This document shows positions 12,867 through 15,417 of a stretch of DNA of 64,000 bases, in pieces. The DNA is taken from NCBI GenBank assembly GCA_016789705.1, contig JAEUQR010000001.1, positions 1 through 64,000 on the forward strand, read 5' to 3'. Within the stretch, counting starts at the first letter, position 1. Every line of letters begins with the position of its first letter. The notes under the pieces were generated by a model. That model worked only from the letters and a program-made list of their open reading frames with translations, made no database searches and was not told the origin of the DNA. The DNA is from Acidobacteriota bacterium (GTDB lineage: Bacteria > Acidobacteriota > Vicinamibacteria > Vicinamibacterales > UBA2999). Position numbers and translations under genes: made by a program.

Positions 12867-13766
12867 GTGCCTTCTCGCGTTCCCCGCCCTTACGACACCG
12901 TCCAGGCCGGACGGGCCACGATTACATTCTTCCTCGGTGACTGTGTCGAGGTGCTGGGCGCCTTGCCCGAGCACAAGGTGGACGTGGTCGTCACCTCCCC
13001 GCCCTACAACCTCGGCATCCGCTACCGCACCTACGACGACGGCCAGCCGCGCCACGAGTACCTCGAGTGGACCGACCGCTGGGTGGCGGCCGTGGCGCGG
13101 GCACTCGCCCGGCAGGGCTCGCTCTTCCTGAACGTCGGGGCGAAGCCGACCGACCCGTGGACCGCGCTCGACGTCGCGCAGGCCGTGCGGCCGCACCTCC
13201 ACCTCCAGAACATCATCCACTGGGTGAAGTCGATCGCCATCGACCAGGCCGCTGCCGGCGGCCGGGCCGGGCTCACGGACGACCTGGCGGTCGGCCACTA
13301 CAAGCCCATCAACTCGACCCGGTTCCTGAACGACTGCCACGAGTTCCTGTTCCACTTCACGCCCGACGGCACGACCCGGCTCGACCGGCTCGCCCTCGGC
13401 GTCAAATACCAGGACCCGTCGAACGTGGCGCGCTGGCGCGGCGGCTCGGGCGGCCGCCGCTGCCGCGGCAACACCTGGTTCGTGCCCTACGAGACCATCC
13501 AGAACCGCGAGAAGGACCGCCCCCACCCCGCCACCTTCCCGCCACGCCTGCCGGAGTACTGCCTGAAGCTGCACGGGCTCAGACCCGACCTGACCGTGGC
13601 CGACCCGTTCCTCGGCCTCGGCTCGACGCTGGTGGCCTGCGCCCGGCTGGGCGTGCACGGCCTCGGCATCGAACTCGACGAGCACTACCTCAAGGAAGCC
13701 ATCGCGCGCGTGCGGGCGGCGGTCGACGCGCCGGCCGGCAGGAGCCGGCGGCGGTCTGCGGTATAG
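12867..13766 (+). CDS. Orphan DNA methyltransferase (N4-cytosine/N6-adenine, beta-type order)
   Basis: Transfers a methyl group from S-adenosylmethionine to an exocyclic amino group in DNA. The catalytic motif IV is TSPPYN (about residues 47-52); SPPY is the form most often seen in N4-cytosine enzymes, although N6-adenine enzymes also use it. The SAM-binding motif DPFLGLGSTLVA comes near the C-terminus (about residue 250), followed by GIELDEHYL, so catalytic-before-SAM order defines the beta group. The length of 299 residues is normal. No restriction endonuclease, specificity subunit or Vsr gene is adjacent, so it may have an epigenetic role. The GTG start is supported by the promoter position. 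Its TAG stop overlaps the -10 box of the next gene. Confidence 0.85.
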   Translation: MPSRVPRPYDTVQAGRATITFFLGDCVEVLGALPEHKVDVVVTSPPYNLGIRYRTYDDGQPRHEYLEWTDRWVAAVARALARQGSLFLNVGAKPTDPWTALDVAQAVRPHLHLQNIIHWVKSIAIDQAAAGGRAGLTDDLAVGHYKPINSTRFLNDCHEFLFHFTPDGTTRLDRLALGVKYQDPSNVARWRGGSGGRRCRGNTWFVPYETIQNREKDRPHPATFPPRLPEYCLKLHGLRPDLTVADPFLGLGSTLVACARLGVHGLGIELDEHYLKEAIARVRAAVDAPAGRSRRRSAV

Positions 13767-13774: not shown

Positions 13775-14383
13775 ATGTCACCACGCTCGCTGTACCTCTG
13801 GGTCAGCGTGCTTGCCGTGCTGGCTGCGGTGCCCGTTCCGGGCGCCCTGGCACAGACGGCAGGCGCGACCGCGGCGCCGACCCCGCCGCCTCCGCCCCCA
13901 CCGCTGGTGAAGGTCGGGCAGCCGATGCCCGATTTCACCCTGCCCTACCTCGAACCGGCGCCCGATGGCGGCCGTCCGGCCTCGAAGACGGCGACGCTCT
14001 CGTCGCTCAAGGGCAAGTCGTCGGTGGTCATCGCGTTCTTCCCGGCGGCGTTCTCGCCTGGTTGAACGACCGAGATGTCCCGGTACCGGGACAACTACGC
14101 GCAGTTCGGCGCCAACAACGCCCAGGTCTATGGCGTGAGCGTCGATTCCACCTGGTCCAACAAAGCATTCCGAGAACAGATGGGCCTGGACTTTCCGTTG
14201 CTGTCTGATTTCAAGCGCGACTACACCCGCTCGCTCGGTGTGCTCGACGAGACCTCAGGCATGGCGCGCCGCGTGACCTTCGTGGTCGATGACGCCGGCA
14301 TCGTGCGGCACATCGATCTGGCGGCAGATGCGCTGGATCCGACCGGCGCGCTCGGCGTCTGCTCGCTCCTGAAGAAGAAGTAG
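13775..14383 (+). CDS. Exported selenocysteine peroxiredoxin (in-frame TGA at the peroxidatic position)
   Basis: Reduces peroxides through an active-site thiol or selenol (AhpC/TSA, thioredoxin fold). Read through the TGA at 14063-14065, the product has 202 residues: signal peptide (MSPRSLYLWVSVLAVLAAVP ... ALAQ), a proline-rich linker, then the domain with VGQPMPDFTLP, SSVVIAFFPAAFSPG-U-TTEM and VYGVSVDSTWSNKAFREQMG. In family members the residue in (T/S)PG-C-T is the catalytic cysteine; here that codon, 97, is TGA. Sequence beyond the TGA stays in the same frame and family to the TAG at 14383. The only other cysteine is residue 196 (GVCSLLKKK), a possible resolving residue. A hairpin fitting a bacterial SECIS starts 10 nt after the TGA. 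Without recoding, a 96-residue fragment and an orphan 102-residue ORF would result. A nonsense mutation is the alternative. Confidence 0.85.
14076..14093 (+). promoter_or_regulatory. Putative bacterial SECIS hairpin
   Basis: TGTCCCGGTACCGGGACA is a perfect 18-nt palindrome that can form a 7-bp stem with a GUAC loop (14083-14086). Bacterial SECIS elements lie in the coding region directly after the UGA, with the apical loop about 16-37 nt away and a G in its first two positions. Here 17 nt separate the UGA from a loop beginning GU. SelB would bind it to deliver Sec-tRNA. Confidence 0.75.
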
Positions 14384-14514: not shown

Positions 14515-15417
14515 TTGGACCTACGCCAGCTCGAGATCATCCGCGCCATCGCCGAAACCGGTTCCTTCACCGCCGCCGGGCACAAACTCCACGTCTCGCA
14601 GTCGGCCATCAGCCGCCAGATCCTCCTGCTCGAGGACGAGCTGAAGACGCCGGTGTTCCTCCGCATCGGCCGCCGTATCCGCATCACACCGGCCGGCGAG
14701 TCGCTGCTGCAACTGAGTCACCGCGTCTTCCAGGACCTGACCGACACCGTCGCGACGATCAGCGACAGCCAGGAAACGCTGCGCGGCACGGTGCGCATCC
14801 TCGGCGGCATGACCGTGTGCCTCTACGTCTTCCCGACGCTGCTCTCGGAGCTCACGCGCCAGCACCCGGGCATCGACGTGAAGATCATGAGTGACCCGAC
14901 CGAGCGCTGCATCCAGCACCTCAGGGCCGGCACTGGTGACGTGGCGCTGCTCACGCTGCCCATCAAGGACGCCGACATGGTGACGGTGCCGGTGCTCCAG
15001 GAAGAGCTGCTGGTCGTGACCTCGGCCAAACATCCGCTCACCAAAAAGCGCAAGGTGAACGCGCAGGATCTGGCCACGCAGCCGTTCGTGCTCTTCGAAT
15101 CGGGGTCGAACACGAGGCGCGTCGTCGACGAGTTCTTCGCCTCCTCCGGCATCGAGCCGCGCATCGTGATGGAGACCGAGAACGTCGAGATCCTGAAGGC
15201 GCTCGTGCGCCACGGCCTCGGCATCACGATCGTGTCGTACCAGTCGGTGGCCCGCGACGTGGCGAGCGGCCACCTCTACTGCGCCCGCATCGACGGCCGC
15301 CCGCTCATTCGCGAAACCGGCTGGGTCTACCCGAAGATGAGCCGCACGCCGCGCGCCGTGGACGAAGTGATCAAGGCGTTCGAGAAGGTGCGGCCCCGCC
15401 TTCGCCTGGCGCCCTAG
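14515..15417 (+). CDS. LysR family transcriptional regulator
   Basis: A DNA-binding regulator of 300 residues, normal for the family. The N-terminal winged helix is clear (LRQLEIIRAIAETGSFTAAG, then LHVSQSAISRQILLLEDELK), followed by the periplasmic-binding-protein-like effector domain (TVRILGGMTVCLYVFPTLLS onward). TTG 14515 begins exactly at the conserved MDLRQLE and is preceded by GGGAGA, so it is preferred over any internal ATG. It is convergent with the aminotransferase gene and the stop codons overlap. The effector and targets cannot be read from the sequence. Confidence 0.88.
   Translation: MDLRQLEIIRAIAETGSFTAAGHKLHVSQSAISRQILLLEDELKTPVFLRIGRRIRITPAGESLLQLSHRVFQDLTDTVATISDSQETLRGTVRILGGMTVCLYVFPTLLSELTRQHPGIDVKIMSDPTERCIQHLRAGTGDVALLTLPIKDADMVTVPVLQEELLVVTSAKHPLTKKRKVNAQDLATQPFVLFESGSNTRRVVDEFFASSGIEPRIVMETENVEILKALVRHGLGITIVSYQSVARDVASGHLYCARIDGRPLIRETGWVYPKMSRTPRAVDEVIKAFEKVRPRLRLAP

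Follow-up and report, generated by a model that had tools for sequence, protein, structure and literature searches.

An in-frame UGA very probably encodes the catalytic selenocysteine of a predicted exported peroxiredoxin in Acidobacteriota

A peroxiredoxin-like reading frame in an Acidobacteriota genome is interrupted by a single in-frame TGA, and we asked whether this codon ends the gene or is translated. The frame lies on the forward strand of a 64,000-nucleotide stretch of contig JAEUQR010000001.1 (the window) and runs from an ATG at 13775 to a TAG at 14381-14383. The TGA, at 14063-14065, is codon 97, and 105 codons follow it. Translation table 11 yields two fragments at this locus, the outcome that a sequence-only reading of the window had expected of standard gene callers. 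Read through, positions 13775..14383 (+) constitute a complete predicted selenoprotein gene of 202 residues. Twelve genomes of the order have orthologs of it, and the Pfam domain AhpC-TSA (PF00578) spans the TGA (residues 47-180, 5.8e-35, 120 bits against a cut-off of 26). The sequence-only reading had also placed the TGA at the codon of the peroxidatic cysteine and had followed the peroxiredoxin for 105 codons beyond it; its coordinates were right, and both the frame and the domain match bear out the continuation. The TGA occupies the peroxidatic position in PAAFSPG-U-TTEM, in which PAAFSPGU corresponds to PxxxSxxU, and the aligned column holds Cys in the solved relatives 2ywn and 2cx3 and Ser in the 3hjp chain, which we take to be a crystallized mutant. 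We conclude that the product of this seemingly stop-broken gene is, very probably, an exported enzyme that destroys peroxides and has selenium in its active site.

The explanation that best accounts for the whole, to which we assign a probability of roughly 0.93, is a selenoprotein made by way of SelB and a hairpin, exported, and belonging to the AhpE/Bcp-like peroxiredoxins, with selenocysteine (Sec) at position 97 and Cys at position 196. SelB and Sec-tRNA would read the UGA as selenocysteine under the direction of the hairpin at 14076-14093, a strongly supported step, and an N-terminal signal peptide would send the product out of the cytoplasm. The product would take the fold of the AhpE/Bcp-like peroxiredoxins, with Sec97 attacking peroxides and Cys196 most likely resolving the selenenic acid to a selenylsulfide, which an extracytoplasmic reductant would then reduce.

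Orthologs covering nearly the whole protein are present in 12 of 162 genomes of the order, distributed over six families at 52-100% identity, and every one of them has a single TGA, always in this codon. A gene found, at the threshold applied, in so few genomes of the order is non-essential. Nei-Gojobori estimates of dN/dS for the tested pairs are about 0.06-0.23 before the TGA and 0.07-0.22 after it, and the low values after the TGA indicate that the downstream part has been selected as protein, like the part upstream. A premature stop with no conserved frame behind it, a concern raised from the single sequence, is therefore not what relatives contain: they keep both TGA and frame. A sequencing error at 14065, the companion concern, is excluded by the recurrence of the same TGA in the 12 order genomes and in the 71 family members described below. 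Plasmid homologs of the protein all fell below 60% identity, with none covering 80% of the query.

The gene is adjoined in the window by an N6/N4 DNA methylase gene (12867-13766, 127 bits) and by one for a LysR regulator (14515-15417), and neither neighbor is an evident operon partner. The contig opens with the gene of an FdhE-like zinc protein (131-1228); the CxxC pattern fits the fdhE assignment made from sequence, but Pfam scores of 25.2 and 23.2 bits fall below the cut-off of 27 and leave it weakly supported.

A profile built from 13 sequences (alignment A1) was searched against 396 Acidobacteriota genomes. The best matches, which extend to the profile's C-terminal end, contain one in-frame TGA apiece, and one of them also has a TAA. 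All 71 distinct members collected have TGA at the peroxidatic codon, and all have a Cys near the C terminus, 97 to 105 residues (about 99) past the Sec. None of the 71 full-length members encodes Cys at the catalytic position, and Cys versions of the family were not found; as the A1 alignment itself had Cys in the Sec column, the search should not, as far as we can see, have favored TGA. Cys-type homologs start only at lower profile scores and lack the C-terminal Cys. Those family records that carry a name come from Acidobacteria MAGs (JALHON010000228, CADEFD010000131, and CAIYVZ010000175). A search of 284 Myxococcota genomes gave four matches with values of 1e-38 or below; these all stop before the region of the C-terminal Cys, and none has a TGA. 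Ten genomes of other groups gave no full-length member. In-frame TAGs in two of the Myxococcota matches (L200 and L201) were set aside, being either upstream of the domain or ordinary stops in proteins whose catalytic residue is Cys.

The AlphaFold model of the window's protein (mean pLDDT 86; residues 1-31 below 50) has a peroxiredoxin fold, closest among solved structures to that of Mycobacterium tuberculosis AhpE (151 residues at rmsd 1.6, Z 24.0), and Sulfolobus Bcp4 follows closely. The peroxidase signature is kept as PxxxSxxU (P90..S94..U97), Glu100, and the catalytic Arg166, P90 being invariant and R166 invariant in 13 sequences. The candidate resolving cysteine is Cys196 (codon 14360..14362, +), the protein's sole Cys besides Sec97, which lies in the C-terminal helix (residues 190-201) of the model. 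A distant resolving Cys196 had been proposed from sequence; the Cys itself is confirmed as invariant across the family and absent from Cys-type homologs, and its perfect co-conservation with Sec97 makes a resolving role the most likely one.

The alternative that survives best concerns this last step. The protein could be a Sec peroxiredoxin of the 1-Cys type, like AhpE, that draws on an external thiol reductant and uses Cys196 as a dimer contact or structural residue. That the nearest fold is that of a 1-Cys enzyme, and that Cys196 sits in a helix at the C terminus of the model, make this a distinct though unlikely possibility, against which stand the joint presence of Sec97 and Cys196 in 71/71 members and the lack of a distal Cys in Cys-type homologs. 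It is considerably less probable that the protein is no peroxidase and uses Sec as a thiol oxidoreductase or in repair: Sec peroxiredoxin-like oxidoreductases are known (PMC9312934), but they have UxxC or UxxU, whereas the window's protein retains the peroxidase signature.

The favored Sec97/Cys196 peroxidase would act outside the cytoplasm. Residues 1-26 (13775..13852, +) form a predicted signal peptide with a hydrophobic core and an AxA-type site (...PGALA/QT), and residues 27-44 (13853..13906, +) form an Ala/Pro-rich linker by sequence, pLDDT being about 42-65 at residues 21-40. Signal-peptide-like N termini were scored in 69 of 71 members vs 6 of 59 Cys-type homologs by a simple home-made heuristic rather than a trained predictor. 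From these features we infer that the protein is exported. One ortholog (L074) has a lipobox-like LPSC and may be a lipoprotein.

Bacterial SECIS elements reportedly follow a rule of Zhang and Gladyshev, with a G in the first two loop positions and the loop about 16-37 nt from the UGA. The window has a perfect palindrome, TGTCCCGGTACCGGGACA, at 14076-14093 (+), which gives a 7-bp stem (14076-14082/14087-14093) closed by a GUAC loop (14083-14086) that begins 17 nt past the UGA, in agreement with the rule in its position just downstream, its loop G, and its spacing. The sequence-only reading had described this hairpin with the correct coordinates, loop, and 17-nt spacing; by itself, however, the hairpin is weak and non-significant evidence, as about 1.5 such 18-mer palindromes are expected in Markov-model windows of this composition and an equally good hairpin follows 18 of the 1,314 TGAs of the window (1.4%). 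What makes it significant is its conservation and covariation across orthologs. In 11 distinct ortholog sequences (alignment A2), 98.7% of stem cells are paired, and the last base of a Ser codon always pairs with the last base of an Arg codon, as C-G in seven sequences and as U-A in the other four. None of 500 shuffles equaled the ortholog hairpin in the share of cells paired, the number of double changes, or the covariation score; sliding the pairing left only 30-52% of cells paired. The single broken stem cell, an Arg-to-Gln change in one ortholog (L071), produces a six-base loop with G in second position. The codons for Arg +6 and Asp +9 are invariant, while the conserved Arg +55, +68, and +69 are encoded by three to five codons.

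Outside the order, most members have a second form of the hairpin, a stem built around TAT-CA / TG-ATA with a GGC or GUC loop that starts 23 nt past the UGA. Here the third base of a Tyr codon pairs with the second base of an Asp or Gly codon in 23 of 23 distinct sequences chosen for this form (alignment A3), as U-A in 16 and C-G in 7, so an amino-acid change, Asp or Gly, goes with SECIS pairing. This is a clear case of a SECIS element shaping coding sequence, and the hairpin is placed differently in different members of one family. Neither form is clear in some distant members (for example, L151, L154, and L161). On balance, and with some reserve, we favor the view that these proteins are a phylum-wide, exported, and apparently obligately Sec-dependent subfamily that has kept Sec and the distal Cys, has never reverted to Cys, and has rebuilt its SECIS element at class-specific distances, tying the choice between Asp and Gly to pairing.

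The genome that holds the window (5.03 Mb, 99% complete) encodes a complete Sec-decoding apparatus. Its tRNA-Sec scores 64.4 bits against a cut-off of 47 and is called tRNA-SeC with anticodon TCA by ARAGORN; SelB (322 bits) includes its C-terminal part, SelA scores 528 bits, and SelD (353 bits; G000:C96:41560-42483, L063) is itself Sec-containing, with the motif CAGUASK. The genes that had been proposed as the check on a Sec-decoding genome, selA, selB, selD, and selC (tRNA-Sec), were thus all found. SelA is above its cut-off in all 37 carrier genomes of the peroxiredoxin family that were tested vs 17 of 24 related non-carriers (p ~8e-4, hypergeometric, by our own arithmetic).

Two further alternatives concern the decoding itself. 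The UGA might be read as an amino acid other than Sec, through near-cognate read-through or in a recoded genome, and Sec incorporation is here predicted from sequence; this is nonetheless very improbable, since TGA serves as the ordinary stop of several orthologs in the same clade (L019, L069, and L074), so that TGA is not recoded throughout the genome, and since the site coincides exactly with the redox residue, is followed by a covarying hairpin, and occurs in carriers that all had SelA when tested. A true stop, whether in a pseudogene or through a sequencing or assembly error, agrees with the two table 11 fragments and with the frequency of chance hairpins after TGAs of the window, but we dismiss it as next to impossible, ruled out by conservation of the TGA in 71 members from many assemblies and by the purifying selection that persists beyond it, with the Sec machinery complete in the genome.

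Peroxiredoxin is among the commoner bacterial selenoproteins, which are usually linked to anaerobes, and Sec peroxiredoxins are an already known kind. One from Eubacterium acidaminophilum, as cited in PMC9312934 and PMC13188914, was characterized in 2001, and both papers have an entry "Peroxiredoxin, TxxU" for the Sec peroxiredoxin; for Acidobacteria, three families with four selenoproteins were counted in 2006 (PMC1794560). The E. acidaminophilum protein PrxU (NCBIfam NF040737) is likewise a peroxiredoxin with UGA-encoded Sec at the peroxidatic position. The window's protein scores 60.4 bits with its model, below the cut-off of 270, and differs in its predicted export, its lack of a nearby second Cys, its invariant Cys about 99 residues on, and its occurrence in Acidobacteriota.

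Other relatives are Cys enzymes. M. tuberculosis AhpE, 32% identical over 151 residues, has Cys in place of Sec and is described as 1-Cys, that is, without a resolving Cys, whereas the window's protein has an invariant second Cys that may be a resolving one; we know of no signal peptide in AhpE. Sulfolobus Bcp4 and Bcp1, of the BCP/PrxQ group, are among the best relatives of solved structure (3hjp, 9e-23; 3drn, 1.4e-14) and have the FxPAAF motif in common with it, but they are cytoplasmic Cys enzymes that lack the C-terminal Cys of the predicted exported family. A distal C-terminal resolving Cys is shared in principle with the typical 2-Cys AhpC/Prx1 enzymes, in which the peroxidatic and resolving Cys are about 120 residues apart; the window's protein has a spacing of 99 residues and no long C-terminal arm, and its 75.5 bits fall below the cut-off of 272 for typical 2-Cys AhpC (TIGR03137). 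No NCBIfam model matched the window's protein at its cut-off, and a new model would therefore correct many genomes.

What appears to be new is a subfamily spread across the phylum that is predicted to be exported, seems to use Sec exclusively, and has a distal Cys. An exported Sec peroxiredoxin of this kind across Acidobacteriota was undescribed in the titles and abstracts searched, and the literature searched included no selenoprotein paper with Vicinamibacter. Those exported selenoproteins that are known to us are large enzymes of respiration that leave the cytoplasm by the Tat route. The present gene, which standard translation splits in two, seems to provide a largely uncultured phylum of soil bacteria with an extracytoplasmic, selenium-dependent antioxidant.

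In a tree of 152 rows, the family groups with a second Sec family (93 rows: 89 Sec and four Cys) apart from 55 Cys and four other Sec rows. Support for the Sec-rich group is modest (82/84), the deep nodes being weak and the long branch of L105 unreliable, and three of the Cys rows sit next to the second Sec family. The tree does not show the predicted exported family arising once; its members form a grade within the Sec-rich group, since the second Sec family and a few Cys rows branch from among them. The topology suggests that Sec is old in this group and that a change to Cys took place in the sister family but not in the predicted exported one. In the latter, Sec was nowhere found swapped for Cys, whereas the sister Sec family has Cys members, so it can be asked why an extracytoplasmic peroxidase should need selenium.

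The second TGA-bearing peroxiredoxin family (FTGGUTxECKSLRES) has its own conserved hairpin and no C-terminal Cys, and many of its members look exported. It is present in 17 genomes of the family, including that of the window (G000:C167:2060-2446, L023; also L021, L022, L024, L025, L048, L050, L052, and L054-L062). At one locus (G039:C223:11958-13042, L058), Cys and Sec copies stand side by side; the Cys copy falls beside the Sec clade inside the larger Sec-rich group, which hints at a change from Sec to Cys after duplication. Nitrospirota peroxiredoxins (L101, L103, and L104) with a TGA in FTPVUQAE, also lacking the C-terminal Cys, are a further Sec lineage. Finally, the window's genome contains a Redoxin-domain frame with a UxxC motif (ADWUPYC) at G000:C14:35919-36368 (L029; also L028 and L030), the same-frame C-terminal part of which looks DsbD-like by eye, making these three an additional candidate selenoprotein within the same genus.
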